Program-made: the position numbers and the translations under genes
The notes under the pieces: generated by a model
What the model was told of the DNA's origin: nothing
The model's input: only the letters and a program-made list of their open reading frames with translations
Database searches by the model: none
Shown: piece after piece, positions 8,381 through 48,621 of the stretch
How the letters are laid out: every line of letters begins with the position of its first letter
Position numbering within the stretch: position 1 is the stretch's first letter
From: Bradymonas sediminis
GTDB lineage: Bacteria > Myxococcota_A > Bradymonadia > Bradymonadales > Bradymonadaceae
DNA length: 64,000 nt
Assembly (NCBI RefSeq): GCF_003258315.1
Contig: NZ_CP030032.1
Location: 1,216,001 to 1,280,000, forward strand
Direction: 5' to 3'

Positions 8381-8618
8381 GCGTTTCTAGATCCTGAAGA
8401 AAATCGAAGCGTCCCGCGCTCCCATGATGCATCGTTCTTCGCCGGGCGTGCTGGCGCCAGCGCCCGTTCAACCTATGCGTGTCGCCCCTAAGGTTCAACT
8501 CTGCGCTTCGCCCGGCAAGATATTTGGGGGATTTGTCACGAACAAGAAACGTTTTGGGAATCGGTGCATCTAAAGGAGTGGTTGGGGGGAGTTCATTATA
8601 TTTTATTCAGGAGGTTTT

Positions 8619-9302
8619 ATGAAAGTTGAGATCTGGTCCGACGTGGTATGCCCGTGGTGTTATATCGGAAAACGCCGGTTCGAGAGCGCGCTAGAGAAGT
8701 TTGATGAAGATATTGACGTCATCTATCGCAGCTTCGAATTGTCGCCCGACGCCCCGCGCCGAGTGCCCGGGTCGATGGAAGATATGTTGGCCGCGAAATA
8801 TGGGATGAGCGCGGAGCGTGCAAAACAGATGCTCGCTCAGGTTACCCAGGCTGCGGCTGCCGAAGGATTGGATTTCGACTTCTCGAGCGCCAAGACCGGC
8901 AACACCTTTGACGCCCATCGCGTCCTGCATTTCGCGCTGGCCGAGGGCGTCCAGAATGACGTGAAAGAACGCCTGATGCGGGCGTATTTTGTGGAAGGGC
9001 GCGCGGTCGCCGAGCGCGACGAGTTGCTCAAAATCGCGGGTGAGGCCGGGTTGGACACCGCCAAGCTGGCCGAAGTGCTCGACAGTGACACCTACGCCGA
9101 AGACGTGCGCGCCGATATTGAGCGCGCCCGACGCATCGGGGTCAAGGGCGTGCCATTTATCTTGATCGACGGCGAGGTTGGCATCTCGGGCGCTCAGCCG
9201 CCGGAGACTTTCTTGGAGGCGCTCAAGGGCGTTCAGTTGCGCCGCGAGCAAATGCGCGCGGACGCGTGTAACGAGGGGATGTGCGTGTCGCCCGACGAGT
9301 GA
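8619..9302 (+). CDS. DsbA family oxidoreductase, FrnE-like
   Basis: 227 aa with no signal peptide, preceded by AGGAGG 6 nt before the ATG. The N-terminus IWSDVVCPWCYIGKRRFE has the CPWC active site and WCYxGK signature of the cytoplasmic FrnE/2-hydroxychromene-2-carboxylate isomerase-like DsbA branch. The helical insert follows, and the cis-Pro loop is GVKGVPFILIDGEVGISGAQ (about residues 176-195). Family members act as thiol oxidoreductases or chaperones under oxidative stress. A short C-terminal tail ends with an extra Cys pair (DACNEGMCV). It is a single gene, divergent from the export operon and convergent with the response regulator at 9345. Confidence 0.9.
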   Translation: MKVEIWSDVVCPWCYIGKRRFESALEKFDEDIDVIYRSFELSPDAPRRVPGSMEDMLAAKYGMSAERAKQMLAQVTQAAAAEGLDFDFSSAKTGNTFDAHRVLHFALAEGVQNDVKERLMRAYFVEGRAVAERDELLKIAGEAGLDTAKLAEVLDSDTYAEDVRADIERARRIGVKGVPFILIDGEVGISGAQPPETFLEALKGVQLRREQMRADACNEGMCVSPDE

Positions 9303-32352: not shown

Positions 32353-35300
32353 TCACGATTTTGCAGCGGTGATCTCGCCAAAGCGAAGATATAACGCCGG
32401 CACGACGATCATATTGAGCGCGGTCGCCGAGATGAGTCCAAATAATAGGACAATCGCCATCGGGGCCTGGATCTCACTGCCGGGTTCGCCGGCTTGCAGG
32501 GCCAGCGGGACGAGCCCGAGGCCGCTGGCAAGCGCGGTCATGAGGATCGGGGCGAGCCGTTCCATGGCGCCCTGTTTGACGGCTTGCCATCGGTCGCTGA
32601 CGCCTTCCTCGTAGTGGAGGTGGCGAATATGCGAGACCATCAGTAGGCCATTTCGGGTGGCGATGCCAAAGAGCGTGATAAAACCGATGAGTGAGGCCAC
32701 CGATAAGATGCCGTCGAGGACGTAGACGCCGACCACCCCGCCGATCAGCGCATGCGGCAGGTTCGCCATGACCAGGAGCGCGTCGCGCCCCGACCCCAGC
32801 GAGACAAATAGTAGCAAGAAGATTCCGATAATGACGACGCCGGTCAGCAGGGTCAGCGTTTGGGAGGCCTGGGTGGCGCTCTCGAATTGCCCGCCGTATT
32901 CGACGTGATAGCCCGTGGGCATCACAACCTGCTCGCCGACACGCGAGCGGATCTTCTCGACCACGCCCACCAGGTCGCCTCCCGCTACGTTGCAGGATAC
33001 GACGATATTGCGCTGCACACTTTCGCGGCTGATGCGATTGGGGCGGCGGTCTCGACGCACATCGGCCAGGGCATGAAGGGGCACCTGGGCGCCGGTGGGC
33101 GTCTTGATAAGTGTTTGGCGAATGGACTCCAGGTTGGCCTTCGCGTCTTCGGGATAGCGCACGAGCAGGTCGAAGCCGCGCTGCTCCTCGATGATGCGCG
33201 AGACGTCGTGGCCGACAAACGCGGTCTCGATCACCTCGGCGACCTCGCGCACCCGGAGCCCGTGGCGCGCAATGGCGTCTCGGTCAAAGTCGATGAGCAA
33301 GAAGGGGATATCCATCTGCTGCTCGACGTTGAGGTCGACCACGCCTTCGACATTCTCCATCGCCTCGCTGACCTCCTGGCCCAACCTGCGAAGCTCGTAG
33401 AGATCCGAGCCAAAGATTTTGACCGCAATATTGGCCCGCGTCCCCGAGAGCATATGGTCGATGCGGTGGCTGATGGGCTGGCCGATGGTAATATTCATCC
33501 CGGGCAACTGCGCCAGGTCCTGTCGCAACGCGGCCAGGAACTCATCCTGACTGCGCTCGTGCATCTTGAGGTCGACGTCGATCTCGGCGGCGTTGACGCC
33601 CTGGGCGTGCTCGTCGAGCTCGGCGCGGCCGGTTCTTCGGGAGGTCGAGACGACTTCGGGATGGGCGAGCATTATCTCTTCGATACGCTTGCCGAGCTTG
33701 CCGGAGGTTTCGAGGGAAGTGCCGGGTAGGGTGACCGCGCTGACCGTGAGCGTGCCCTCGTTGAACTCGGGCAAGAATGCCTGACCCGCGTTCAGCAGGC
33801 CCCAGCCGGCGATGCCGAGCGCGGTGAGCGAGGCTGCGGTGATCAGCTTCCAATGAGGGAGGGTTTTGTCGAGCACCGGCTCATAGCCGCGCTTGAGCCA
33901 ACGCATCGCCCAGCTCTCCTCGTTATGCATGATCGCTTTGGTGCCGGGCAGCAGGAAATAACACATCGCCGGGGTCACGGTGAGCGCCACCACCAGCGAC
34001 GCCGACAGCGAAACGACGTAGGCGATACCGAGCGGTTGGAGCAGGCGTCCCTCGACGCCGCTGAGGAAAAAGAGCGGCAAAAACACCAGGATAATGATCA
34101 ACGTGGCGAATACGATCGACGAGCGAACCTCCTTGGAGGCCTCGAAGATGACCTGGATGGTGGGCTGGCGCAGCTCGGGCGGTTTTTGGGCGTCGAGCCT
34201 CAGCCGTCGCACGACATTTTCGACGTCGACGATCGCGTCGTCGACCAGCGCACCGACCGCAATCGCCATGCCGCCGAGCGTCATCGTGTTGATCGAGCCG
34301 CCGAAGAAATCGAGCACCACTACGGCGACCAGAAGTGACAGGGGAATGGCGGTCGCCGTGATCACGGTCGCGCGAATATTAGCCAGAAACAGTAGGAGAA
34401 TGAGCACGACGAGAATCGCGCCGTCACGAAGCGCCGTCATCACATTATCGATGGAGATTTCGATGAAATTGGACTGGCGAAAGATATTTCGTTGTAGTTC
34501 CATGCCTTCGGGGAGTGATGCCTCGATGCCGTCGAGCGCCTCGTCGAGGCGCTCGGTCAGCGCCAGGGTATTGGCGTCGGGCTGTTTTTGAATCCCGATG
34601 ATGACGGCGTCTTTGCCATTAAATGAGCCGTCGCCGCGCTTGAGCGCCGGGGCGATTTTAACCTCACCAAGGTCAGCTACGGTGAGCGGCTGTCCGTTGC
34701 GCACTGCCAGAACGGTGTTGCCGATATCCGAGATTCTTTCGATGCGGCCGAGCCCGTAGATAAGATATTCGCGCCCGTTTTCGCGATAGAACCCGGCCGA
34801 CACGTTCTCATTGGTCTCTGTGAGCGCATCGGTGACCTCATTGAGACCGAGATTATAGGCCGCGAGTTTCGCCGGATTGACGTGGACCTGGTATTGCTTC
34901 ACGCCGCCGCCGATGGGCATCACCTGGGAGACGCCGGCCACCGCGAGCAGGCGTCGTCGCAGCACCCAATCCGCCTCGCTGCGCACCTCAATCGGGGTAT
35001 GCTTTTCAGAGGTCAGGGCGACAAACATGATCTCACCCATGACCGAAGAGATCGGCCCCATCACCGGTGGGTCGACGTCGGCCGGAAGTTGGGAGCGCAC
35101 GAGCTGCAACTTCTCCCCGACGATCTGGCGCGCTCGATAGACATCGGTGCCCCAGTCGAATTCCACCCAGATCACCGCGTTACCGATGCCCGAGGTCGAG
35201 CGAACCCGGCGCACGCCGGTGGCGCCGTTGAGCGCGGTCTCGATGGGGTAGGTGATCTGACTTTCGACTTCCTCAGGCGCCTTGCCGTGTGCTTCGACCA

Positions 35301-35448
35301 CCACCGTTACGCTGGGGGCGGTCAGGTTGGGGAACACGTCGACCGGCATATGAACCGCCTGCCAGGTCCCCCAGATGAAGAGCGCCGCAGCGGCCAGAAC
35401 CACAAAAAAGCGGTTCTCGAGTGACCATTTGATAATGCCGTCAATCAT
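32353..35448 (-). CDS. cusA: Heavy-metal efflux RND permease (CusA/CzcA family), system 1
   Basis: 1031 aa, normal for HME-RND pumps. N-terminal helix follows MIDGIIKWSLENRF, with VDVFPNLTAPSVTV. Two large periplasmic loops lie between TM1-2 and TM7-8. TM4 carries VGALVDDAIVDVENVVRRLR, with the acidic residues used for proton transfer. The C-terminal half has SLIGFITLFGIATRNGLLMV and a final membrane block ending LYLRFGE. VDDAIVDVEN differs from the form in the second system's pump, so the two may move different ions. The gene is third in the TolC-CusB-CusA order and precedes the metal-binding lipoproteins. Confidence 0.95.
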   Translation of the reverse strand: MIDGIIKWSLENRFFVVLAAAALFIWGTWQAVHMPVDVFPNLTAPSVTVVVEAHGKAPEEVESQITYPIETALNGATGVRRVRSTSGIGNAVIWVEFDWGTDVYRARQIVGEKLQLVRSQLPADVDPPVMGPISSVMGEIMFVALTSEKHTPIEVRSEADWVLRRRLLAVAGVSQVMPIGGGVKQYQVHVNPAKLAAYNLGLNEVTDALTETNENVSAGFYRENGREYLIYGLGRIERISDIGNTVLAVRNGQPLTVADLGEVKIAPALKRGDGSFNGKDAVIIGIQKQPDANTLALTERLDEALDGIEASLPEGMELQRNIFRQSNFIEISIDNVMTALRDGAILVVLILLLFLANIRATVITATAIPLSLLVAVVVLDFFGGSINTMTLGGMAIAVGALVDDAIVDVENVVRRLRLDAQKPPELRQPTIQVIFEASKEVRSSIVFATLIIILVFLPLFFLSGVEGRLLQPLGIAYVVSLSASLVVALTVTPAMCYFLLPGTKAIMHNEESWAMRWLKRGYEPVLDKTLPHWKLITAASLTALGIAGWGLLNAGQAFLPEFNEGTLTVSAVTLPGTSLETSGKLGKRIEEIMLAHPEVVSTSRRTGRAELDEHAQGVNAAEIDVDLKMHERSQDEFLAALRQDLAQLPGMNITIGQPISHRIDHMLSGTRANIAVKIFGSDLYELRRLGQEVSEAMENVEGVVDLNVEQQMDIPFLLIDFDRDAIARHGLRVREVAEVIETAFVGHDVSRIIEEQRGFDLLVRYPEDAKANLESIRQTLIKTPTGAQVPLHALADVRRDRRPNRISRESVQRNIVVSCNVAGGDLVGVVEKIRSRVGEQVVMPTGYHVEYGGQFESATQASQTLTLLTGVVIIGIFLLLFVSLGSGRDALLVMANLPHALIGGVVGVYVLDGILSVASLIGFITLFGIATRNGLLMVSHIRHLHYEEGVSDRWQAVKQGAMERLAPILMTALASGLGLVPLALQAGEPGSEIQAPMAIVLLFGLISATALNMIVVPALYLRFGEITAAKS

Positions 35449-35514: not shown

Positions 35515-37140
35515 TTAATGCGCGTGGCCGTGGCCAACTGAGCCGGTCGACATGCTCGCGAGCTTCACATAATAGACGCCCTCGCTGACCACATGCTCGC
35601 CGGGTTGAAGCCCGTCGAGGACCTCGACGTGGTCGCGGTCGCGCATCCCCAGGCGCACGATGCGCCGCTCAAATGACTCGCCATTTTTCATCACGAAGAC
35701 GACGTCGAGGCCCTTCTCGTCGAGCACCGCCGAGGCCGGAATACTCAGGGCTTCTCTGGGCTCAGCGCTGTAGATATGAGCCCTGACGAAGCTGCCGATC
35801 CGCAAGTGTTTTTGTGCATCGTTTTCACCCAGCGCAAAGATCAGCGGCGCGGTACGCGTGGTCGGGTCGATCACGTCGCCAAAACTGAGCAATTCGCCCC
35901 CTGTGTTGACGTCGATCTCAACGGGCGGAAGTTTCCCACCCGGCTCAAACCACAGGCCGGTCGGCTGGCCGATGCGCGGTAAATCGGCCTCGGGCACATG
36001 GGCCTCGAGCCATAGTTTTGAGCGGTCGACGATGCGAAAGAGCGAATCGCTGCGGGACACAAATCCGCCGTCCACGACCGTTCGTTCGGCGATCATCCCA
36101 TCGATAGGGCTTCGGATCGCCACGCGTCCGTTGGCCGCGGCGCCGCGCGATTCGAGGTTGCGAAATTGCCCGATTCGTTGCTGGGCCTGGTCGACGTCGG
36201 CCTGGGCGATGTCGCGGGTGCTCTGGGCATCCTGGAGCCGCTTTTCGGCGATCGCGCCGCTTGTCACGAGTCCCTGCACGCGCTCGAAATCGCGCTCGGC
36301 GCGACTCAGTTCAACCTTGGCTTTACGAAGCTCAGCCCGAAGTTGGGTGATCTCACCGGCGTCCAGGCTTGGGAGAATATAGGCGAGTATCTGGCCGGCC
36401 TCGACCCGTTGGCCGACCTGTGCGACCCCGTCCTTTGGGGCCGAGATGCGCCCGTCAAAGGGAGTCGTCACCCGCGACTCGCCGCCCGCGGCCGGCCGAA
36501 GATTTGCGTTCACTATCACCGACGGGCGCATCGAGCGCGTCACAGCTTTCGCCATATCGAAGTCGACCATCCACTGCTGTTCTTTGAGGAAAGAAACGCC
36601 GCCTTCGGGCACTTCGACTTCGATTTTGCGCGCCGCCTCGATATTCTCGAAGACCTCAAACTCACCGAGATTGAATGTCTCGCTAAACGCCTCTGTTTTG
36701 AGCATCAGGATAAGCTGGCGCTTGCCCGGGTATTTCGGAATCGCGATGGGCGTAAAAATGCCAGGCCGCGCGGGCGCGCCGGCCGCCCAATTCTCGCCGG
36801 GCGACTCCTGGCTCGTCAGAACGAGCGAAAGCGTGCCGTTTCGCACCGGCTGGTAGCCGTCGAGCGTGGTAAAATGGGCCGCGAATTTTGACTCCAGCCC
36901 AGCGACGAGCGCCGGAAACTCGACGAAGATTTCGGTATGCTCACCAAAGACGGTGATCACATGGGTCGGGCGCTCGCTGTCGCCATGAGCGTGATCTCCG
37001 TGGTCCTGCTGGCCGTCTCCATGAGTATGATCGCCGTGATCATGATGATCGCAGCCGACCAGCGCCAGCGAGAGGACGAGCAAGATGAGGAGCACCCTAT
37101 TTGGTGCGCGAAATATGACTTCGATTGGCTTTATTCGCAT
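35515..37140 (-). CDS. cusB: RND periplasmic adaptor (CusB family) with His-rich ends, system 1
   Basis: 541 aa lipoprotein (lipobox LVGC). Directly after the Cys comes a His/Asp block (DHHDHGDHTHGDGQQDHGDH), and the protein ends in VGHGHAH, so both ends can bind metal. The core has the membrane-fusion-protein layout: a barrel-sandwich half FDGRISAPKDGVAQVGQRVE, a coiled-coil hairpin (about 255-315) and the second half AIRSPIDGMIAERTVVDGG. A beta-barrel and a membrane-proximal domain with LSIPASAVLDEKG follow. It starts 4 nt after the TolC gene stop, so the two are translated together. Confidence 0.93.
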   Translation of the reverse strand: MRIKPIEVIFRAPNRVLLILLVLSLALVGCDHHDHGDHTHGDGQQDHGDHAHGDSERPTHVITVFGEHTEIFVEFPALVAGLESKFAAHFTTLDGYQPVRNGTLSLVLTSQESPGENWAAGAPARPGIFTPIAIPKYPGKRQLILMLKTEAFSETFNLGEFEVFENIEAARKIEVEVPEGGVSFLKEQQWMVDFDMAKAVTRSMRPSVIVNANLRPAAGGESRVTTPFDGRISAPKDGVAQVGQRVEAGQILAYILPSLDAGEITQLRAELRKAKVELSRAERDFERVQGLVTSGAIAEKRLQDAQSTRDIAQADVDQAQQRIGQFRNLESRGAAANGRVAIRSPIDGMIAERTVVDGGFVSRSDSLFRIVDRSKLWLEAHVPEADLPRIGQPTGLWFEPGGKLPPVEIDVNTGGELLSFGDVIDPTTRTAPLIFALGENDAQKHLRIGSFVRAHIYSAEPREALSIPASAVLDEKGLDVVFVMKNGESFERRIVRLGMRDRDHVEVLDGLQPGEHVVSEGVYYVKLASMSTGSVGHGHAH

Positions 37141-37144
37141 TATA

Positions 37145-38476
37145 TTATTCGCCCTCGTGCTGAGATATTTTGTCGTTTAGTAATTCGAAATTTTGCTCTA
37201 ATTCGATCTGGTGATGACGCGCCTCGGCGGCCATCTCCTGGAGGCGCAGGCGTGAGCCGACGACCCCGTGATATGCGTCGATAAGTTCGAGGATGCCGAC
37301 TTCGCCTGCGTCGTAGCTCTGCTGCGCTAATGTCGCGTTTTTCTGGGCGCGCTCGACGCCTGCTGTGCGGTAGGTGTCGGCGGCCGCGGAGAGCATGCGA
37401 ACCTTTGAGGAAGCCTCCGACGCATCGGCTTGTATTTGTTGCTTCAGCAACGCGCGGCGACTCTTTGCGCTAACCAGCGCCGCCTCGGCCTCCATGCGCT
37501 CGCCCGCGGCCCGGTCGAATAATGGGATATCGAGGGCGACGCCGGCGACGAATCCATGAAAGCGCTGCGTACCAACGTCGACGCTTTTATAGCCGCCTCT
37601 GAGGATCAGCTCGGGGATCCACCAGCGGGAGGCTGCGTCGATACTCAACTGCGCCGCGGCGCCTCGCTCACTCGCAGCGGCGAGCTCGGGTCGGCCCGCG
37701 ACCGCCCGGCGAAGCGCCTCATCATCGGGTAATTTCGCGGGCAATAACTCGCCCTCGACGCGCAATGTATTTTGCGCTGAATCGATGCCCACCAACCCGG
37801 CGAGTTGAGCCCGCGCGCCGGCGAGTTCTGCGCGCTCGGAGGCGGCGTCCGCTCGGACATCCGCAATCTCGCGTCGCAGCCGCTCCACATCATAGGGTGC
37901 GCTCTCACCCGCCTGGGCTCGCTGAACCAACTTCTGCTCAACCTCTCTCATCTGTTCGATCCAGGCCGAGCGCATTTCGACACGCTGCTGAAGCGCGAGG
38001 ACGCGATAGAAGAGGTGGCGAACACGAGTCGCGATCTTTCTTGCGTCGGCGTGCGTCTCGAGCTGAGTGGCCCGGGCGCGTGTTCTGGCGGCCTCGGCCC
38101 GAAGCCCGCGATTGCCGGAAATAGGCAGCGCTTGCTCAAGAATCAGATAGTCTTCGGCCAGAGTCTCGGGTTCTTCGAAAGCCTGCTCCCGGCTGTATTC
38201 GAATATTGGATTCGACCGCGCCTGCGCCCGAAGTGCCGCCGCTTCGTCCGACTTTATTTGGGCAGCCCAGAGGTCATTGAGTGCCGGGCGCTCTAGCGCC
38301 CGACGCACGGCTTCTTGCTCGCTAAGGACCTGTTCGGAATCGGTCGATATTTGCGCGTTCAAAGGCGACGCAACACAGAGCCCCACGATAAAGAAAGACA
38401 GCGCCACAAAAAACCTATGGCCAATCGGTTTTATCGCGAAATAAAGGCAAGTTCTTTTCATATAATATATGCTCAT
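37145..38476 (-). CDS. cusC: TolC-family outer-membrane efflux protein (CusC-like), system 1
   Basis: 443 aa with a signal sequence (FIVGLCVASPLNAQ). The sequence is mainly long amphipathic helices in two related halves, as in TolC channels. Visible features are LSEQEAVRRALERP at the start, SNPIFEYSREQAFEEPET, a coiled region from about 125 to 220 and a second helical half with DRAAGERMEAEAALVSA and VERAQKNATLAQQSYDAGEV. It lacks a lipobox Cys. It is 21 nt downstream of the M56 gene, so regulator and pump genes are likely co-transcribed. The ATG at 38476 has no strong ribosome site; the Met at residue 6 is an alternative. Confidence 0.9.
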   Translation of the reverse strand: MSIYYMKRTCLYFAIKPIGHRFFVALSFFIVGLCVASPLNAQISTDSEQVLSEQEAVRRALERPALNDLWAAQIKSDEAAALRAQARSNPIFEYSREQAFEEPETLAEDYLILEQALPISGNRGLRAEAARTRARATQLETHADARKIATRVRHLFYRVLALQQRVEMRSAWIEQMREVEQKLVQRAQAGESAPYDVERLRREIADVRADAASERAELAGARAQLAGLVGIDSAQNTLRVEGELLPAKLPDDEALRRAVAGRPELAAASERGAAAQLSIDAASRWWIPELILRGGYKSVDVGTQRFHGFVAGVALDIPLFDRAAGERMEAEAALVSAKSRRALLKQQIQADASEASSKVRMLSAAADTYRTAGVERAQKNATLAQQSYDAGEVGILELIDAYHGVVGSRLRLQEMAAEARHHQIELEQNFELLNDKISQHEGE

Positions 38477-38497
38477 GCCAGTCAGGAAATATTTGGT

Positions 38498-39481
38498 TTA
38501 AAAGGCGAGGAAGGTCAGGGTTTCAAAGGCGTGGTGGAGCGCATCGTGAAAGAGAATCAGCGCGCATGCAGCCACACCACAGGTCGCCAGAATGGGCAGC
38601 CAATTGGGGCGCCGCCAATTCCCGTCGAGCATGCCTCGAACGCGTTCTTCCAGCGAGTGGATCCCAAAGCCGAGCGCCAGAGCAGGGGAGGGCTCAGCGT
38701 CACAGGCGCGCTTCATGGCCACAATCGCCTCGGCGACTGTGAGTCGATCGCCGATGGCATCGGCCGCGGCTTCGTCACAGGCTTGCTCACAAGCGAGGTC
38801 GATATGTCCGAGGAGTTGCGTGCGTATCGGGGAGAAATGGAATTTCGCCCCCAGGCGGATTCCCAATTTAACCAACGCATCATAGCGACGGATATGCGCC
38901 TTCTCGTGGGCAATCACGGCCTCGAGTTGCCGGGCCGACAGGAGTTCGCGAAGCCGCCGCGAGATGCAGAATTTCGGCCGAATCAACCCGATCGCCACCG
39001 CGATCGGCCGCTCGCTTGCGATCATCCAACCGTCGATTTCGGCGTCATAATGCCCGAGCCGTTTGAGTTGCTTATTCCAGGCGCCCGCTCGCCGAACACC
39101 CGCAAATTCGCTCTTCCAACCGGCAAATATCCAGACAATAAAAGCCGCACAACCCGTTAATATTAAAGGTGAAATGGGCGGCGGAGTGCCGTGAATAAAG
39201 CAAAGATGGAAAGTGTGGTGCGAATGATAAGAGCAATGGTCAGCGGCAAGTCCAAGGGCATCCAGAACGGAGGGCAAAAATGAGACCATCACGACGATGC
39301 TACCCAGTGCGGCTGGCAATAACGCAAGCGCGCTCAACATCATAAAACGCGCCCGGGGCGTGACGAGGTTGAGGCGCTCGACCCAGCTCGACACCCCGAT
39401 GGCCACGAGTCCTGCTCCCACGACGGCGCCCGCCGCGAAGAGAATAATGACCACTTGTAACCAGCTCAATAGCACCATCAT
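38498..39481 (-). CDS. M56-family (BlaR1-like) membrane metallopeptidase
   Basis: 327 aa with helices near residues 5-30, 40-70, 100-125 and about 300-320. The zinc site is AVIAHEKAHIRRYDALVK (HExxH variant HEKAH with the downstream Asp). Further supporting motifs are RPIAVAIGLIRPKFCISRRL and EQACDEAAADAIGDR, which are standard for M56/BlaR1 proteins. It overlaps the BlaI-type repressor gene by 4 nt. In beta-lactamase systems the pair senses drug and destroys the repressor. Here no penicillin-binding sensor domain follows, and the next genes form a metal pump. It is therefore probably a metal-stress-triggered protease for the repressor. Confidence 0.92.
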   Translation of the reverse strand: MMVLLSWLQVVIILFAAGAVVGAGLVAIGVSSWVERLNLVTPRARFMMLSALALLPAALGSIVVMVSFLPSVLDALGLAADHCSYHSHHTFHLCFIHGTPPPISPLILTGCAAFIVWIFAGWKSEFAGVRRAGAWNKQLKRLGHYDAEIDGWMIASERPIAVAIGLIRPKFCISRRLRELLSARQLEAVIAHEKAHIRRYDALVKLGIRLGAKFHFSPIRTQLLGHIDLACEQACDEAAADAIGDRLTVAEAIVAMKRACDAEPSPALALGFGIHSLEERVRGMLDGNWRRPNWLPILATCGVAACALILFHDALHHAFETLTFLAF

Positions 39482-39867
39482 TGCGACTCATCCGACGCCT
39501 GGCGCTTGGCGGCGATCAACGCCTCAAGCGCGTCCAGCGTGCCCGCTCCGGCTCGATCGGCGAGGTTGACGAAGGCCTCAAGCGCCACGTGCATGTCGGT
39601 CTCTGCGACCAATTCGCCGACCAATAATTCAGTCAACTCACGGCGGTCGACGCGCTGTGAATAGATATAGGCGTGACCCTTTTTATGGCGTGATAATAAC
39701 TTCTTCGTCCACAAACGCTTAAACGTCGATTGAACCGTATTATGAGTAATACCTCGCTCCTCGCCAAACGCCCGGTGGGCCGATTTGACGTCGCTCTCAC
39801 CGTGCTCCCAGACATATTCGAGCACCGTCATTTCTAGCTCTCCCAAATGGGACACATCTGCATTCAT
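39478..39867 (-). CDS. BlaI/MecI/CopY-family repressor
   Basis: 129 aa. The winged-helix domain (about residues 1-75) shows LGELEMTVLEYVWEHGESDV, a recognition region GITHNTVQSTFKRLWTKKLL and wing SRHKKGHAYIYS, all standard for this family. The C-terminal dimer part (about 80-129) lacks the CxCx4-5CxC copper cluster of Enterococcus CopY. It is therefore probably not a direct copper sensor and more likely depends on the M56 protease encoded next to it. It heads the minus-strand Cus operon and lies beside two ACCGA-N7-TCGGT sites. Confidence 0.93.
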   Translation of the reverse strand: MNADVSHLGELEMTVLEYVWEHGESDVKSAHRAFGEERGITHNTVQSTFKRLWTKKLLSRHKKGHAYIYSQRVDRRELTELLVGELVAETDMHVALEAFVNLADRAGAGTLDALEALIAAKRQASDESQ

Positions 39868-39898
39868 CGACTTTCCAGGTTAAAGGATTCACAAGCGG

Positions 39899-39915
39899 AC
39901 CGATTGCCTGTCGGT
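39899..39915. promoter_or_regulatory. Candidate BlaI-type operator 1 (ACCGA-N7-TCGGT)
   Basis: ACCGATTGCCTGTCGGT is centred 40 nt before the repressor start codon. Its half-sites are identical to those of site 2 (39979-39995), and the centres are 80 bp apart. The position fits autorepression of the repressor/M56/Cus operon. Confidence 0.6.
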
Positions 39916-39970
39916 TTTATCACATGACAACGCAAATAACGATCCATCGAGACACTCAAAAGCTATAGAA

Positions 39971-40003
39971 GCCATTAAACCGATTGTCAATCGGTTTAAT
40001 GGC
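39971..40003. promoter_or_regulatory. 33-bp perfect palindrome, candidate BlaI-type operator 2
   Basis: GCCATTAAACCGATTG (39971-39986), a central T, and the exact complement (39988-40003) form a perfect 16+1+16 palindrome with core ACCGATTGTCAATCGGT. It is centred 73 nt before the MFS gene on the plus strand and 120 nt before the repressor gene on the minus strand. It could control both directions. An operator is more likely than a terminator because it lies between divergent starts and its stem is AT-containing without a T-run. Confidence 0.7.
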
Positions 40004-40059
40004 GTGATACTTCTTTGGCGTGATGTGGTGGTGGTTCTTTCTGGATAGCAGGCTCATTT

Positions 40060-41292
40060 ATGGTGACATATAGCACCCTGGGCGATCTCGAAAAAATCGA
40101 ACGCAACGCGCGGTTATACCCATGGTATATAGCGGTATTCAACGCGTTCTTCTGGATGCCGGTCTTTTTTCTATATTTCGGTGAGAACCTGGGGCTTGCG
40201 CGCGTTTTGCAACTCGAGGGCATTTATTATGCGGCGGTGGTCGTTTTAGAGGTGCCTTCAGGGTATATTTCCGACCGATTTGGCCGAAAAACAACGCTTC
40301 TGGGCGCCTCGCTGATGCTTGTTGTGGCGTATCTTATCTTCTTTTTCGCCTCGAGTTTCTCAGCCTTTGCCGCCGCTCAGGTCGTACTCGCCGCCGGCAT
40401 TGCGTTGAATAGCGGCACCGACACTTCCTTTCATTACGACTCACTGACCGCGCTCGGTCGCGAGGTTGAATACGCCCAGCGTGAGGCCGTGGCGGCTCGA
40501 AGCGCGATGCTGGCGACCAGCCTGAGCGCGCTTATTGGCGGTGGGGTGGCGGCGATCGACCTCCGCTACGCTTACGGTCTCTCGGTTATTGCAGCCGTTG
40601 CGGGGCTCATCACCGTACTGAGCTTCACGGAACCACAAAGCAAAACAGCCGCGCAGGCCGCGCCTTTTTTCTCGCAGCTTCATGACTGTTTTAGGCACCT
40701 GAGGCAGCCGCGCCTTGCATGGTTATTCGGGTTTGTGGTGCTCATCACCATCCTCGAACATATCCCTTATGAGTTTTACCAGCCCTATCTCGATCTCTTA
40801 GGTGCGCAGCTTGATTTCAGCCCCAAAACGGCGCTGATTGCCGGCGTTCATATGGCCATCGCGACCCTTATCGGTGCATTGTTCGCGCACAACAGTGCGC
40901 GCATCGCGGGTCGGCTCGGCATCGCCAAAACCCTGCTGCTGGCCGCATTGCTTCAATTGATCATTATTTCGGTCATGGGGTTGTTCCTAAATGAGGTTAT
41001 CGTTGCGCTCATCCTCTTGCGCGAGATCGCGGGCGGCATGACCCGCGCGCCAATTAACGCCGCGATCACCCCGTATATCCCGCAGAAGCAGCGTGCCACC
41101 TTCCTGTCCATCCAGAGTCTGGCGGGTCGCGTCGGGTTTTCTGCGCTGTTGGTCGGCCTGTCCTTCTCAACCGGCAATATCGACACGCATACCTGGTCGG
41201 CGCTTTCTCATCTATTGCTCATCTGCGCCGGACTAGGTGCGCGGGGGCTTGGCGTGCTTGCAATAAGTCTGTGGTGGGTGGATGTGGAGTAA
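40060..41292 (+). CDS. Major facilitator superfamily transporter
   Basis: 410 aa with about 12 helices. The loop 2-3 signature DRFGRKTTLLGASLML follows EVPSGYIS, as in MFS drug and metabolite transporters. A second-half counterpart is near GRLGIAKTLLLAALLQ, and REIAGGMTRAPINAAITPYI resembles motif C of the MFS_1 group. The substrate is unknown. The gene is divergent from the BlaI-type repressor with a perfect palindrome between them, so it is probably controlled by that repressor. A role in metal or metallophore transport is possible but not shown. Confidence 0.9.
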   Translation: MVTYSTLGDLEKIERNARLYPWYIAVFNAFFWMPVFFLYFGENLGLARVLQLEGIYYAAVVVLEVPSGYISDRFGRKTTLLGASLMLVVAYLIFFFASSFSAFAAAQVVLAAGIALNSGTDTSFHYDSLTALGREVEYAQREAVAARSAMLATSLSALIGGGVAAIDLRYAYGLSVIAAVAGLITVLSFTEPQSKTAAQAAPFFSQLHDCFRHLRQPRLAWLFGFVVLITILEHIPYEFYQPYLDLLGAQLDFSPKTALIAGVHMAIATLIGALFAHNSARIAGRLGIAKTLLLAALLQLIIISVMGLFLNEVIVALILLREIAGGMTRAPINAAITPYIPQKQRATFLSIQSLAGRVGFSALLVGLSFSTGNIDTHTWSALSHLLLICAGLGARGLGVLAISLWWVDVE

Positions 41293-41376: not shown

Positions 41377-42303
41377 TCAGTAAATCGCAAACCGAACCCC
41401 GCCCAACACAAAGAATCGACTGTTATCTTCGCCCGCCGCCGCGGCCATATCTCCGGTGCCGAAGACAAGTGCCTCGAAACGTGCGCCCAGGTAGGGTGCG
41501 AATTCGCGCCAGAGGGCGTAGCGAAGCCGCAGGTCCACGACCACGCTATTCATGCCGGCGCCGATGCCGCGCGCGTCGCTGTCTCGGGCCGAGAATCGCA
41601 ACTCGGTGCGCGGCTGCAGCACCAATCGCTGGGTGATGCGGACGTCATATTCCGCCTCAAAGGTGGCGAGGAGGTTGAGTTTTTCGGTGACGTAGATGGA
41701 GGCGTCGACCTCGAACATACCCGGGGCGAGTCCCTGGATGGCGAGCGCGGCGGCCCAGAAATCCCTATAATTTTCTCCGCCCCAGACGTTCGCATATTGT
41801 ACGCCGGCCTGCGCGGTCCAGAAGGGCGCGATAAGTCGGCCATAGAGCAGGTCGACGTCTGACTCCCCCTCGAAATCCTCGCCTTGCCAACTCGCTTCGC
41901 CCTCACCCTTGAGCCATAGGCGGTTGAAGTCGCCGCCAAACCAGGCCGAAAACTCGGTGCCAACCGCGTCGGGTTCGCCCTGTAAATCGTAGCGATACTC
42001 GAGCTGATCGACGATAAAGAACGCGCGAAGGTGGTCGTCCGGAATGGCGTCCGGGTAGTCATCGGGCGGCGGCTCTTCCGCGCGCGCCAAGACCTCATCG
42101 AGGGTCATGCCGGCGGGTAATTCCGCCTCCGGGAGGCGGCTCTGTGACTCGACCTCCGGCGTCTCGGGCGACTCCTCGGCGTGCTCCGAGTCACCGTGCT
42201 GGTGGGGCGAATCCTGGGCCCAGGCGTTCGGGCCGCCGGCGAGTAAAACGCATAATGAGACGAGGATCCGCGTGACATCGCGTCGCTTAGGATTTGGCAT
42301 CAA
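41377..42303 (-). CDS. pcoB: Copper resistance protein B (outer membrane, PcoB/CopB)
   Basis: 308 aa with a signal peptide (LLAGGPNAWAQ) and a short His-containing start (SPHQHGDSEHAEES). The barrel shows the family pattern: DQLEYRYDLQGEPDAVGTEF, WFGGDFNRLWLKGEGEAS, the segment AGVQYANVW, and the close FVLGGVRFAIY. Family members are outer-membrane proteins working with the CopA/PcoA oxidase in copper sequestration. The gene overlaps the oxidase gene by 17 nt, and the two form the usual pair. It is convergent with the MFS gene. Confidence 0.95.
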   Translation of the reverse strand: MMPNPKRRDVTRILVSLCVLLAGGPNAWAQDSPHQHGDSEHAEESPETPEVESQSRLPEAELPAGMTLDEVLARAEEPPPDDYPDAIPDDHLRAFFIVDQLEYRYDLQGEPDAVGTEFSAWFGGDFNRLWLKGEGEASWQGEDFEGESDVDLLYGRLIAPFWTAQAGVQYANVWGGENYRDFWAAALAIQGLAPGMFEVDASIYVTEKLNLLATFEAEYDVRITQRLVLQPRTELRFSARDSDARGIGAGMNSVVVDLRLRYALWREFAPYLGARFEALVFGTGDMAAAAGEDNSRFFVLGGVRFAIY

Positions 42304-44200
42304 TTGGCTCCCCGCTGAGGTCGCGAACCACCGCGACGGTGCGAAACATACCCGCCTCCATATGGTATAAAAGATGGCAATGAAACGCCCACTGACCCGG
42401 CGCGTCCGCGCTGATGTCGACGGTCAGCAGCTCGGCCGGGTTCACGTTGACGGTGTGTTTTCGTGGGTTCTTCGCGTAGTCGTGGCCGACATATAAATCC
42501 ATCCACATTCCGTGCAGATGAATCGGATGGCTCATCATCGTATCGTTGATAAAATTGATGCGCAGGCGCTCGCCAAATTTAAAGCGAATCATCTTCGACT
42601 CGGACCATTTTTTGCCGTTAAATCCCCAGATATATTTATGCATATTGCCCGTGAGATGCAGGTTGATCTCGCGGGTCGGTGGCCGACGGTCGGGCGGTGT
42701 TTGCAGCGCTTTGAGTTGGCCATAGGTCAGCACGCGTCGGCCGTCTTTTCCCAGGCCAATGCCCGGCTCATCAAAGCGCCGATAGGCGTGCATGGCCATC
42801 GCGATGCTCGCCGCGCCGTGCTCATCTGGGCCGTGTTGGACCATCTCCGGGAGGTTCTGGATAGGCAGAGGTTTTCGCTCTTTGATCGGGGCGACCCGGC
42901 GCTCGTCGTGGGGCGGGTAGGTCACGGACGTCGACGGTTTATCGTCCATTTTATGCTCGCCGTTCATCGCGTGTGCGCCGTGCGAGCTCTCCATATCCTT
43001 CGTTTCGTCGCCTTCATCCATGCCCTCCATCGCGCCGTGCATCATCCCCATATCGGCCATGGTGAGCATCGGCCGGTGCCGACGCGCCGGGATGGCGGCC
43101 GACATTCCCGGTCTAGGGGCGAGCGTCCCGCGCGCGAAACCGCTGCGATCCATCGTCTCGGCAAAGATCGTGTACGCCTTTTCGTCGGGCATCGTCACCA
43201 GCACGTCGTAGGTCTCGGCGACCGCCACGCGCAGCTCATCGACCTCGACCGGCTCCACGTTTTGCCCATCCGCCTGGACCACCGTCAGCGGCAAACCCTC
43301 CACCCGGAAATCATAATAGGTCATCGTCGAGGCGTTGGTGATGCGAAAGCGCACCTTTTGGCCGGGCCGGGCGAAAAAGGTCGGGTTCTGGGCGGCGCTT
43401 CGGCCATTGAGCAAATAGGTGAAGGTCGCGCCGGTGATATCTGCGATATCGGTCGGATCCATGCGCATCCAATTCCATTGCAACCGTTTGCTTATGACCT
43501 CGCCGAGGCTCTCGCCGGTGGCCTCGACCTGGGCGCTGAGGTTGGCCAGAGTAGGGCGCTGAAAATTATAATAGCCCTCGATTGTCTTGAGCTTCTTCAT
43601 CGCCGTATGAGGATCTTCGAAGGTCCAATCCGAGAGGACGATTGTGTGCTCGACGTCGTACGCAACCGGGTCGGGCTGCGCGGGCTCGATGATAAGCTGG
43701 CCGTAGTGGCCGAGTTGCTCCTGCATGCCGGTATGGCTGTGGTACCAATAGGTCCCGTTCTGGCGCACCTTAAAGCGATAGGTGAAGGTCTCACCCGGCG
43801 CGATGCCCCGAAAACTGATGCCCGGCACCCCGTCCATCGTGAATGGAAGGAGTATGCCGTGCCAATGAATCGAGGTCGATTCGTGCATTCGATTATGCAC
43901 TCGAATCAGGGCGTCATCTCCCTCTTTCATGCGGATGACCGGCCCGGGAAATCCACCGTTGATGGTGATCGCCTGGCCGATCTTTTCGTCGACGCGTACC
44001 TCTTGCTTCTCGATATAAAGATCGATGCCGCCGGGCGTGCTGGCATCGAGGGCGCCGAACTTGCCGGCACGCAGCTCGGGGTTGGTGCGGGCCCACAGCG
44101 GTCCCGCGATCTTCAGGCTGGCCAGACCTGCCGCGGCGCCTGCCACAAAGCCACGTCGCGAGATTGAATTTTCGCGTTGCGAATCAGGACCATTCATCAT
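42287..44200 (-). CDS. pcoA: Copper-resistance multicopper oxidase (CopA/PcoA)
   Basis: 637 aa from an ATG behind GGAG (a second ATG follows). A twin-arginine signal SRRGFVAGAAAGLASL exports it folded. All copper ligands are visible: HWHG (about 113), YWYHSHTG, HPIHLHG near 545 and HCHLLYHMEAGMF near 610. A Met/His-rich insert (about 385-430; MADMGMMHGAMEGMDEG and SSHGAHAMNGEHKM) is typical of CopA/CueO-type cuprous oxidases and binds extra copper. It oxidises Cu(I) in the periplasm. The symbol pcoA is used only to separate it from the ATPase. It is followed directly by the pcoB gene. Confidence 0.96.
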   Translation of the reverse strand: MMNGPDSQRENSISRRGFVAGAAAGLASLKIAGPLWARTNPELRAGKFGALDASTPGGIDLYIEKQEVRVDEKIGQAITINGGFPGPVIRMKEGDDALIRVHNRMHESTSIHWHGILLPFTMDGVPGISFRGIAPGETFTYRFKVRQNGTYWYHSHTGMQEQLGHYGQLIIEPAQPDPVAYDVEHTIVLSDWTFEDPHTAMKKLKTIEGYYNFQRPTLANLSAQVEATGESLGEVISKRLQWNWMRMDPTDIADITGATFTYLLNGRSAAQNPTFFARPGQKVRFRITNASTMTYYDFRVEGLPLTVVQADGQNVEPVEVDELRVAVAETYDVLVTMPDEKAYTIFAETMDRSGFARGTLAPRPGMSAAIPARRHRPMLTMADMGMMHGAMEGMDEGDETKDMESSHGAHAMNGEHKMDDKPSTSVTYPPHDERRVAPIKERKPLPIQNLPEMVQHGPDEHGAASIAMAMHAYRRFDEPGIGLGKDGRRVLTYGQLKALQTPPDRRPPTREINLHLTGNMHKYIWGFNGKKWSESKMIRFKFGERLRINFINDTMMSHPIHLHGMWMDLYVGHDYAKNPRKHTVNVNPAELLTVDISADAPGQWAFHCHLLYHMEAGMFRTVAVVRDLSGEPIDAKS

Positions 44201-44262
44201 CAGCGTTCTCCTTTGTGTTTGTGGCGCACACAACGATACCGCGATGCCATGTCTATGATCAC

Positions 44263-44288
44263 AAAAGCCCCTTCCGAGAGGGGCTTTG
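44263..44288 (-). terminator. Intrinsic terminator after the second multicopper oxidase gene
   Basis: AAAGCCCCT (44264-44272) pairs with AGGGGCTTT (44279-44287), with A/T runs on both sides. It lies about 120 nt past the minus-strand stop at 44404 and just upstream of the pcoA start, separating the two oxidase genes. Confidence 0.75.
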
Positions 44289-44403
44289 TTGCTACAAATA
44301 ACTCGGTTCTATGAAGCTAAAACGCATCCGCGATTAGTCTAGTGATTTTCTGGAATTGTATTTTTTGCTTGAAAACAGGCCGAGTTAGTTGCTGACACGC
44401 CCG

Positions 44404-45846
44404 TCACTTCTCCACATGAATCTCCGTCATCATCCCCGCCTCGGCGTGCTCCAAAATGTGGCAATGCATCATCCAATAGCCCCAGTCGAGCGGGACCATG
44501 CCGACGTCGATGACTTCCTTGCGCTCCAGGAGCACCGTGTCGCGCAGGAACGGCTCGTCGACCGGGACGCCGTTGCGGGCGAGCACCTTGAAGAATTGCC
44601 CGTGGATATGCATGGGGTGCAGGCGAAATGAGTCGTTCTGGAAGCGAATGCGCTTCCAGCGGCCTTCTTTGAGGACCGTGGGCTCGTGGGTGCCCCAGAC
44701 CTCGCCGTTGATCGTCCACTCGATGCCGTGGGGGCCGCCGCGGCGCGCGTCGAGGACGTAAGTCTGGTCGATATCGCGCTCCAGGGCGCCCTCCCATTTC
44801 GGGAGGTTCGGGTTAAATGGCGGCTCAAAGGTCGGGGTTTCGACCGGCTCGCCGGCGACCTTTAGCGTCGCGAGGACCGTGGGTTGACGGCCGAAATCGT
44901 TCATCAAAGCGAAGCTCTTGCCGGCCGCATCTTTGGGGATGGTGATGTCGACATCGAGCCGGTTTCCGGGGGCCGTCTTCTGGCCGAGCAGCGTGACCGG
45001 CTTGCCCGTATACATGCCGTCGGTGGCGATGACCTTCGCGTCCAGACCGTCGAAGCGAAGTTGATAAACGCGCCCGTTCGACGCGTCCAAAAGGCGCAGC
45101 CGCAGCCGCTCACCCGGGCGAACCTCCATCACCTTGTGGGACTCACCGTTGACCGTGATATCGCGCCCCCAACGGCCGTCATGGGAGAGGTCGTGGCGGG
45201 TCACAAAACGCGGGTCAATCTGGCCGTCGCGCCCGAGCTTCCAATCGTCGAGCACCCACATTTCGTCGCGGGTATATCCCAGCGGCTCGGCGTCTTCGAC
45301 CACGAGAACCCCGTAGAGCCCGCGCCCAACCTGCTCGGGCGTCTGGTGATGCGGGTGAAACCAGAAGGTCCCCGCGTCCTTGGGGACGAAGCGATATTCG
45401 AAACTCTCGCCGGGTTCAATCGCGTCCTGCGTGACGCCCGGCACGCCGTCCATCGCGTTCGGCACGCGCACGCCGTGCCAATGAATCGTGGTCGCCTGGG
45501 GCAAGTCGTTCTTAAAGCGGACCAGCACCTCCTCACCCAACTTCACCCGCAACACCGGCCCGGGAACCTGGCCATTATAGGCCCACACGTCGAGGTCGCG
45601 CCCGTCGATTTGCTTGACTGTGGTGGGCGCCGCGCGAAGTTCGAATTCGCGGGTCTTCGTGGGCTTGGGCGCGTCGGCCGGATAGGCCCGGGCGAGCTCT
45701 GCTTCGAATCTGGCGAGCTGGGCGTCGGGTGACTTCTCATGCTGCGCCGAAGTTGTACCGGGGCCCGTGACCTTCGTGTCGCAGGCGACCAGGTACGAGA
45801 GCGTGCCGCAGAGAAGGGCGATGAGGAGAGCGCGAAAAGCGGACAT
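44404..45846 (-). CDS. Second multicopper oxidase, lipoprotein
   Basis: 480 aa with lipobox LVAC, so it is probably membrane-anchored rather than Tat-exported. Three cupredoxin domains and all four copper motifs are visible: HWHGVRVPNAMDGVPG, FWFHPHHQTPEQVGRGLYG, HPMHIHGQFFKVL and HCHILEHAEAGMMTEI. It lacks the Met-rich insert of the Tat oxidase upstream and is closer to SufI/laccase-like oxidases. It lies in the same strand block as pcoA but is cut off from it by a terminator. Cuprous oxidase or laccase activity is possible. The Tat oxidase is the better candidate for the main detoxifying enzyme. Confidence 0.93.
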   Translation of the reverse strand: MSAFRALLIALLCGTLSYLVACDTKVTGPGTTSAQHEKSPDAQLARFEAELARAYPADAPKPTKTREFELRAAPTTVKQIDGRDLDVWAYNGQVPGPVLRVKLGEEVLVRFKNDLPQATTIHWHGVRVPNAMDGVPGVTQDAIEPGESFEYRFVPKDAGTFWFHPHHQTPEQVGRGLYGVLVVEDAEPLGYTRDEMWVLDDWKLGRDGQIDPRFVTRHDLSHDGRWGRDITVNGESHKVMEVRPGERLRLRLLDASNGRVYQLRFDGLDAKVIATDGMYTGKPVTLLGQKTAPGNRLDVDITIPKDAAGKSFALMNDFGRQPTVLATLKVAGEPVETPTFEPPFNPNLPKWEGALERDIDQTYVLDARRGGPHGIEWTINGEVWGTHEPTVLKEGRWKRIRFQNDSFRLHPMHIHGQFFKVLARNGVPVDEPFLRDTVLLERKEVIDVGMVPLDWGYWMMHCHILEHAEAGMMTEIHVEK

Positions 45847-46077: not shown

Positions 46078-46488
46078 ATGACCTATTTTAACAAACCCGA
46101 TTATGGCATGAGCACAACCCTGAAGGGCGTAAGCCACGAAGACGCGATTGAGCGTACCAAGGCGGCGCTTAAGGAAGAGGGCTTCGGCGTGCTCACGACC
46201 ATTGATATTAAGGCGACGCTGAAAAAGAAGTTGGACGTCGACCATCGCCCCTATGTGATTTTGGGCGCGTGTAACCCCGGGCTGGCCCACCAGGCGCTGA
46301 GCGCCGAGGCGCCCATTGGACTTTTGCTTCCCTGCAATGTCGTGGTCACCCAGGACGATAATGGCGACGCCGTGGTCGCGGCGATTAACGGCGAGAAGAT
46401 GTTCAGCGTGGTGAATCGCGATGACCTCGGCCCCATCGCCAAAAAGGTCACCGCGAGTCTCGGGCGAATGATCGACAGCTTGAAATAA
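46078..46488 (+). CDS. DUF302 domain protein
   Basis: 136 aa, ATG preceded by AAAGGAG. The whole chain is one DUF302 domain: GMSTTLKGVSHEDAIERTKA, EEGFGVLTTIDIKATLKKKL, YVILGACNPGLAHQAL, IGLLLPCNVVV. No signal peptide is visible, so it is probably cytoplasmic. DUF302 proteins are common in metal and sulfur stress loci but have no settled biochemical role. The conserved GACNP and LPCNV Cys residues are both present. It is divergent from the second multicopper oxidase. Confidence 0.93.
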   Translation: MTYFNKPDYGMSTTLKGVSHEDAIERTKAALKEEGFGVLTTIDIKATLKKKLDVDHRPYVILGACNPGLAHQALSAEAPIGLLLPCNVVVTQDDNGDAVVAAINGEKMFSVVNRDDLGPIAKKVTASLGRMIDSLK

Positions 46489-47307: not shown

Positions 47308-48621
47308 ATGAAACGCAAGAACGCTTTCACGCGTGTTCGGCGTGTGCTGGCTGGGCTGTGTGTCGCCGCGGTTTCGACCGTGTGTGCGGTGCCGATGGTC
47401 TGGGCGGACGACGGTGATTTTGAGCCGAAAACGCTGGCAGATTACGAGCATCAGGCCCTTAAAAATCACCCTCGCTTGGAGGCTGAGCAGCAAAAACTGC
47501 GCGCCATTCAAGCCGAGCGGGAGGGCAAACTCGCCAGTTATCCGCAGCCGATGATCAGCTACGGGGCCGAGATCGGCACGCCTTGGACCTCGATGCCGGG
47601 GGTTGGGCATACGGTGATGGTCTCGCAGCAACTTCTGTTGCCCGGGCGGCGAGCTCTGTGGGCCCAACCCGCCGAATTGCGCGGATCTGGGGTGGAAGCG
47701 CAGATCGAGGCGTCGAGCAATCAGATCGTCTTTGAGGTGCGTCAGGCGCTGATCGAGATCGCTCGCCTGGACCATCATCTGCTGATCTTCAACAAACAAA
47801 AAGAAGTCTACGCCGAGGCCGTGAGCATGGTTGAGGCGCTGATGTCGACCGGGCGCACCAGCTATGCGGACGTGTTGAGGCTATCGGTGACCAGCGAGAT
47901 GCTCATCGACCAGATCGACCGCGTCCAGCGCGAGCGCGATGAGGTCGTGGCGGGCTTGCGCGTTGAGTTGGGGCTGGCGCCCGATGCTCAAATTCCTTTC
48001 GAATTTAGTGGGGAAAATAGCCCGATTGAGGTGTCCGATGACGCGCTCGAGCTTCCGAAATTATTAGAGGCGATGAACGCGCAGAACCCACAGTTGCGCG
48101 CGTTGGAGTTTGAGGCGCAGGCGGAGCTTGCTCAGAGCGAGGTCGTTCAAAAGGACGCCTGGCAGGGGCCGACCGTGGGGGTGGGCTATATGAATATGCC
48201 CTCGATGACGATGGACGGTGAGCGAGATGACGCGCTGATGCTGTCGGTGGCGATGCCGTTTCCGATCTTTGGGCGCCAGATCGCGCTGAACTCGGAGCGC
48301 TCCGAGGCGACGGGTTTGAGCGCGCGCGCGCAGCGGGCCGCCTTGCAGCGCACGTTGTCGACGCAGATCGAGGCCAGTGTTCTTAAGATTCGCGAGCGGC
48401 AGCGGCGACTCCTTCGCTACGAGAAGGAATTGATCCCGATGCTGGGTGACGTCAGCGAGCGTTTGCTGGCCGATGTCGAGGTCGGCCGCGGCCAGGTGAC
48501 CGACTTTCAGTTGGTTTTTCAGCAGCAGCTCGACCTCGAGATGATGCTCGTGGACCTGCGGGCCGACATCGCGATTGAGCAAGCGCGGCTCAAGATGTTG
48601 ACCGGCCGAGGGGCCGAATAA
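47308..48621 (+). CDS. cusC: TolC-family outer-membrane efflux protein (CusC-like), system 2
   Basis: 437 aa with a signal peptide (AAVSTVCAVPMVWAD). Two helical-hairpin halves: ALKNHPRLEAEQQKLRAIQ, then MVSQQLLLPGRRALWAQPAE in the first half, and NPQLRALEFEAQAELAQSEV with VAMPFPIFGRQIALNSERSE in the second. This layout is standard for CusC/CzcC channels, and the lack of a lipobox is as in system 1. The gene order TolC-CusB-CusA follows on the plus strand with gaps of 67 and -11 nt. Sequence resemblance to the system 1 channel is limited, so this is not a recent duplication. Confidence 0.92.
   Translation: MKRKNAFTRVRRVLAGLCVAAVSTVCAVPMVWADDGDFEPKTLADYEHQALKNHPRLEAEQQKLRAIQAEREGKLASYPQPMISYGAEIGTPWTSMPGVGHTVMVSQQLLLPGRRALWAQPAELRGSGVEAQIEASSNQIVFEVRQALIEIARLDHHLLIFNKQKEVYAEAVSMVEALMSTGRTSYADVLRLSVTSEMLIDQIDRVQRERDEVVAGLRVELGLAPDAQIPFEFSGENSPIEVSDDALELPKLLEAMNAQNPQLRALEFEAQAELAQSEVVQKDAWQGPTVGVGYMNMPSMTMDGERDDALMLSVAMPFPIFGRQIALNSERSEATGLSARAQRAALQRTLSTQIEASVLKIRERQRRLLRYEKELIPMLGDVSERLLADVEVGRGQVTDFQLVFQQQLDLEMMLVDLRADIAIEQARLKMLTGRGAE

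Follow-up and report, generated by a model that had tools for sequence, protein, structure and literature searches.

Genes at the head of a pump operon

The 64,000-nucleotide stretch of Bradymonas sediminis DNA analysed here (the window) contains, on its minus strand, a gene for a BlaI-family repressor and a gene for an M56 (BlaR1-type) membrane metalloprotease that share an ATGA overlap. Downstream of the protease gene, on the same strand, follow genes for TolC-, CusB- and CusA-like proteins (38476–32353; Table 1). We searched the order and the phylum for proteins similar to the M56 protease and compared the surrounding DNA; the order BlaI–M56–(TolC)–CusB–CusA is kept phylum-wide in most of 40 relatives. 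The M56 gene lies beside a repressor gene in nearly all of the relatives, and homologues of the divergent MFS transporter adjoin the system in some of them; the comparison overall covered about 250 loci. An earlier note on this DNA had proposed a BlaI/BlaR1-type architecture, and the overlapping genes, whose products both score above their Pfam cut-offs (PF03965 and PF05569), uphold it. A pattern search for BlaI proteins in the genome contigs gave 173 matches, none of which was confirmed.

Table 1. Features of the repressor–protease–pump locus, in window coordinates; fractions are counts among 41 aligned M56 homologues.
Feature	Position	Strand	Basis or remark
Heavy-metal RND pump, uncharacterised subclass, TMH4 VGALVDDAIVDVEN	32353..35448	-	TIGR00914, 866.9 bits vs 701.45
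RND periplasmic adaptor, His-rich N-terminus	35515..37140	-	TIGR01730
TolC-family outer-membrane factor	37145..38476	-	PF02321
O2, candidate third site, minus-strand reading ACCGATTGGCCATAGGT, inside 5′ end of tolC	38413..38429		about 1.57 kb from O1
M56 (BlaR1-type) membrane metalloprotease, 327 aa	38498..39481	-	PF05569, 42.5 bits vs cut-off 31
C-terminal HHxxE, residues 316–320	38522..38536	-	H316 40/41, H317 34/41, E320 41/41
E232 (third zinc ligand) to D236	38774..38788	-	E232 40/41, D236 41/41
HEKAH protease motif, residues 192–196	38894..38908	-	H192, E193, H196 invariant, 41/41
Outer loop EL1, residues 81–97 (D81 H82 C83 H86 H92 C94 H97), proposed metal-sensing site	39191..39241	-	D81, C83, C94, H97 invariant, 41/41; H82, H92 40/41; H86 37/41
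BlaI-family repressor gene, 129 aa	39478..39867	-	PF03965, E 2.6e-18, 66.9 bits vs 22.6 cut-off
A98–F99, predicted cleavage position in repressor	39571..39576	-	homologue conservation and S. aureus register
Recognition-helix motif NTVQST (Q46), class marker for ACCGA/TCGGT half-sites	39724..39741	-	
O1b, second ACCGA-N7-TCGGT site, untranslated leader before blaI	39899..39915		
−10-like TATAGC, 17 bp from −35	39962..39967	-	sequence; weak TAnnnT peak at same spacing in relatives
O1, 33-bp perfect palindrome, core ACCGATTGACAATCGGT at 39979–39995	39971..40003		
−35 TTGACA embedded in O1	39985..39990	-	sequence; logo of 24 loci
Divergent MFS transporter	40060..41292	+	PF07690; 57 bp beyond O1

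BlaI and CopY belong to one fold family that Pfam does not separate, and the CopY/TcrY model TIGR02698 matches the window repressor weakly, as might be expected if the repressor were a conventional CopY-like metal sensor to which the M56 protein is an accessory. However, that match reaches 39 bits, far under the cut-off of 121.95, the repressor contains no cysteine at all and so lacks a metal-binding Cys motif of the CopY/TcrY type, and almost every relative has the repressor together with the M56 protein, the loop of which is invariant; we consider a CopY-like sensor very unlikely. The repressor can thus be confirmed as a BlaI-family protein devoid of the copper-cluster cysteines, as the earlier note had described it. 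Its closest relative, at locus L047, is 76–77% identical.

We place the predicted cleavage position of the repressor at A98–F99, which we take to be in register with N101–F102 of S. aureus BlaI. Within an otherwise variable stretch of the protein, A98 is kept in 106 of 111 homologues and F99 in 105 of 111. S. aureus BlaI is cleaved at N101–F102 (PMC9834060).

Operators and the recognition helix

With perfect arms of 16 bp, the O1 palindrome exceeds in length every other perfect palindrome of the window; the runner-up has arms of 11 bp. Exact ACCGA-N7-TCGGT sites lie at the O1 core and at O1b, and with up to three mismatches to AACCGATTGNCAATCGGTT the 5.05-Mb genome contains four places, three of them within this 1.6-kb stretch, against none for a reversed control. 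Both of the operator sites that had been noted before, one of them inside the 33-bp palindrome, are therefore real, but two is an undercount, as the third site inside tolC (O2) had been missed. A search of Rfam over 38200–40300 gave no match.

Relatives carry AAAACCGATTGACNNTCGGTTTT upstream of BlaI, and a second leader site like O1b is not regular among them. In a logo of 24 loci that were not selected for their operator, CCGA...TCGG is invariant, as the search pattern required, and is centred on TTGAC (the −35 hexamer), which the pattern did not require, with a weak TAnnnT peak 17 bp further on. The pattern ACCGATTGACNNTCGGT occurs 23 times in 379 genomes of the phylum and its reverse not once. 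Scanning roughly 85,000 GTDB species genomes for AACCGATTGACNNTCGGTT returned 101 stretches, in 71 of which a BlaI stop codon lies 410–483 bp downstream on the same strand; 28 of the 101 have an operator match with no BlaI nearby, and because a 17-base pattern should match about 30 times by chance in 257 Gb, we do not take these as regulon members. The operator's hosts include Gamma-, Beta-, Alpha- and Zetaproteobacteria, Acidobacteriota, Krumholzibacteriota and Myxococcota.

The half-sites change with the repressor's recognition helix. Among loci found by M56 similarity only, ACCGA/TCGGT lies upstream of repressors with an NT[VI]QS[TA] helix (the Q class) in 20 of 24 cases, TCCGA/TCGGA upstream of those with NTV[GSA]SA (G/S/A) in 8 of 10, and TACTA/TAGTA upstream of the TTVMTT type (YTT class, YTTVMTT) in 15 of 25. 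Of these 59 loci, one matches a different class, and the counts in shuffled sequence are 0 to 0.15; the loci are related in sequence, so that a Fisher value for this association is not readable as a probability. In the BlaI tree the G/S/A helices fall into two distinct clades, both supported (100/100 and 100/97), and TCCGA sites are found in both; one Q-helix locus, L061, has a mixed site. This covariation, taken at the level of sequence, supports the idea that these repressors bind these sites, and it bears out the previous suggestion that the operator is unlike the TACAnnTGTA type. A three-class helix–operator code would also make the targets of such repressors predictable from sequence.

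The third site, O2, recurs in the same class-matched manner. When the 200 bp after the M56 stop codon were scanned with 9 or more matching half-site bases out of 10 required, a class-matched O2 was found in 55 of 86 Q loci, 7 of 10 G/S/A loci and 19 of 24 YTT loci, whereas shuffled sequences gave 0 to 0.2 and the control stretch at +300 to 500 bp gave none; the remaining 31 of the 86 Q loci score below 9/10. O2 usually starts 35–60 bp past the M56 stop codon, about 1.5 kb from O1, and falls either within the first pump gene or immediately ahead of it. In many loci it is part of the reading frame of tolC, and at some, such as L052 (z −6.06), a perfect palindrome there can fold into a hairpin; instead of an operator, it could reflect constraint on the codons of the TolC signal sequence or be the hairpin of an RNA terminator. 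However, the O2 half-sites shift with the repressor class, from ACCGA to TCCGA to TACTA, which neither a coding constraint nor a hairpin explains, and the window's own O2 hairpin is no better than shuffles (z −0.41); we regard these explanations as highly improbable. No −35/−10 pattern is evident around O2, so that a second promoter there seems less likely than a roadblock or a loop to O1.

The M56 protease, its outer loop and the linked pumps

An AF2 model of the M56 protein (pLDDT 91.3) matches BlaR1 (8EXT) with a Z of 13.1 over 223 aligned residues at 15% identity, consistent with the membrane protease fold, and the PF05569 match together with the HExxH...E zinc site places it in the M56 family. 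Comparison of its single sequence with the PDB gives no match at E ≤ 1; BlaR1 was reached by profile and fold comparison only. Domain profiles find no penicillin-binding sensor domain in the protein, and the model chain stops after the last helix, which confirms the earlier description of an M56 protease that lacks this domain and whose gene overlaps that of the repressor. A tblastn search of plasmids with the window M56 protein gave no match.

Alignment of 41 M56 homologues (mean column identity 38%) shows that the key residues of the outer loop EL1 are as conserved as the HExxH motif; the aligned proteins were picked mainly among those with the DHC loop described below, and this invariance therefore describes the DHC kind. 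The conserved loop and C-terminal residues fall in two regions, the outer loop that joins helices 2 and 3, and the tip of the last helix, at which the window protein has HHxxE and BlaR1 bears its penicillin sensor. The topology of BlaR1 leads us to predict that HHxxE faces the periplasm, as EL1 does. In BlaR1, EL1 comprises residues 56–96, and its displacement has been proposed to drive signalling (PMC9834060).

The loop comes in several kinds, which match the pumps beside them. The DHC kind (DHC..HxHLCxxH) accompanies pumps with VDDA..DVEN like that of the window, and other kinds (HWHH...SWHG, AC.xH...LCVWHP and C..DH..C), which also have HHxxE, accompany CzcA-like pumps (TMH4 DFG..DGA). By a permissive Cys/His motif, all 83 M56 proteins with an RND gene downstream have a Cys/His loop, and none of the 21 motif-negative proteins, which are mostly larger or found in pump-less settings, has an RND gene downstream. 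A further 51 motif-positive proteins have no RND gene in the DNA covered, mostly because the 8-kb stretches or the contigs end there. At two loci, L063 (8304–9293) and L068 (about 7991–9000), a DHC-loop M56 protein and a Q-helix BlaI are followed by a TonB-dependent receptor gene and no RND pump, so that the DHC loop is not strictly a mark of efflux; a CobW-family GTPase gene lies near the second of these, and the two loci suggest a possible use of this sensor in metal uptake as well. A separate M56 group of 519–821 aa (L238–L255) has no Cys/His loop and no pump, and is mostly paired with BlaI proteins having TTVLKL or TTIATM helices.

These patterns bear on what the protease might sense. Its family resemblance to BlaR1 and MecR1 could mean that the system responds to beta-lactams as they do, but the M56 protein has no penicillin-binding domain, its loop conservation counts against beta-lactam sensing, and the operon encodes a heavy-metal pump and no beta-lactamase, which makes this barely credible. 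The two invariant cysteines of the periplasmic loop could instead form a Cys83–Cys94 disulfide through which envelope or redox stress, not metal, is sensed. We consider this unlikely, as His and Asp residues beside these cysteines are also invariant, metal pumps also lie beside the HWHH loop kind, in which there is no Cys pair, and all the linked pumps that were tested are heavy-metal RNDs. EL1 could be a structural-metal binder or a thiol/disulfide sensor. The conserved Cys/His loop, found with metal pumps and missing from other M56 proteins, supports the earlier proposal that metal rather than beta-lactam is the signal.

The pump bears on which metal this would be. The earlier note had named it a Cus pump; an RND protein of the CusA/CzcA type (TIGR00914) does lie directly downstream of the protease, but the name is not supported. 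In CusA, M573, M623 and M672 make up the methionine triad, and the window pump has S, A and H in these columns, which gives no support for placing it in the CusA (Cu/Ag) subgroup. All nine further RND proteins that were scanned match TIGR00914 best. RND proteins 31–37% identical to the window pump were considered as multidrug pumps and rejected as such, since the full-length ones outscore the window pump on TIGR00914. Genes for copB, a copA-type multicopper oxidase and a second multicopper oxidase (41377–45846, minus strand) adjoin the system and converge with the MFS gene; no matching operator was found at 41377–45846, and copA/copB neighbours occur beside the system in few relatives. With the Met triad absent and these neighbours so rarely kept, we leave copper as a possible metal. 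Beside the copper genes is a gene for a 136-aa protein (46078–46488, plus strand) that we take to be DUF302-like, and an outer-membrane-factor-like gene at 47308–48621 (plus strand) is possibly part of a second efflux operon.

A proposed switch and its relation to known systems

We propose, with a probability of about 0.7, that the locus switches on a heavy-metal RND pump by proteolytic derepression; we infer DNA binding, cleavage, metal binding and the action of O2 from sequence comparison. A BlaI-type dimer would sit on O1, covering the −35 box and repressing its own operon, and would also bind O2 after the M56 gene, where by a roadblock or by looping to O1 it would hold read-through into the pump genes more tightly than expression of the regulators. 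The M56 protein would directly sense excess periplasmic metal through the EL1 Cys/His cluster, probably together with the C-terminal HHxxE, a role that in BlaR1 falls to acylation of the sensor domain by beta-lactams. The bound metal would then activate the cytoplasmic HEKAH protease, which would cut the repressor near A98–F99 and allow the pump to be expressed.

Proteolytic derepression by BlaI and M56 proteins is classical. The staphylococcal BlaI/BlaR1 and MecI/MecR1 systems share with the window system the repressor family, the M56 HExxH...E site and, as predicted for the window, an autoregulated operon, and a conserved A-F lies at the predicted cleavage register; in contrast to them, the window system has no penicillin sensor but a Cys/His EL1 and an HHxxE tail, half-sites of ACCGA/TCGGT, and a metal pump as its target. 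The position of EL1 between helices 2 and 3 is likewise that of BlaR1 (PMC9834060). CopY/CopR repressors have the same DNA-binding family and control metal export, but the window repressor has no Cys cluster and is predicted to work with a protease, and its predicted operator differs from that of CopY, TACANNTGTA / RNYKACANNTGTMRNY (PMC7253601).

Like CusCBA and CzcCBA, the window pump belongs to the TIGR00914 family and is encoded in a tripartite operon; unlike them, it has the altered triad positions and VDDA...DVEN in TMH4, and the regulators encoded in its operon are BlaI/M56 proteins and not a two-component system. The usual view is that two-component systems or MerR-type sensors govern the metal efflux operons of Gram-negative bacteria. 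The proposed switch would be a third, irreversible route present in many genomes, in which periplasmic metal leads through a protease to destruction of the repressor, and it bears on the workings of M56 receptors that lack a penicillin sensor, many BlaR1 homologues being annotated just as 'M56 family metallopeptidase'.

Metal-triggered proteolysis of a BlaI protein is not a new idea, as the copper-activated case of PetRP in cyanobacteria has already been described (PMC7896320, PMC10141476). In Synechocystis, PetR, a BlaI-family regulator, is reported to be degraded in a copper-dependent manner with PetP, a BlaR1-family protease (PMC7896320, PMC10141476, PMC13421787), and this shows that a mechanism of this kind exists. 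Compared by published description, the two systems are alike in their pairing of a BlaI and an M56 protein. However, PetRP is reported to switch plastocyanin and cytochrome c6 and to act as an activator too, and is not known to control detoxification, whereas pairs of the window type head a metal-pump operon and have an operator code and a second operator. A 2023 paper described what BlaR homologues do in heterotrophic marine bacteria as still to be elucidated (PMC10141476), and in the open-access literature we found no description of the pump-linked class, the EL1 Cys/His sensor, the ACCGA operator or O2. On balance we favour the view that metal-gated BlaR1-like receptors are widespread in Myxococcota, Gamma-, Beta- and Zetaproteobacteria and others, that EL1 and the C-terminal HHxxE form their sensor with interchangeable loop kinds matching the pump subclasses, and that a class-matched second operator, inside or ahead of the first pump gene, keeps the pump under tighter control than the regulators.

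A BlaI–M56–TolC–adaptor–CusA/CzcA module with the AC.xH loop kind is carried by a conjugative Pseudomonas aeruginosa plasmid (L258; CP109756.1, 399631–407313). Its BlaI is identical or near-identical in Dyella, Dechloromonas, Comamonadaceae, Pigmentiphaga and Cupriavidus, which suggests that this module has recently been mobile.
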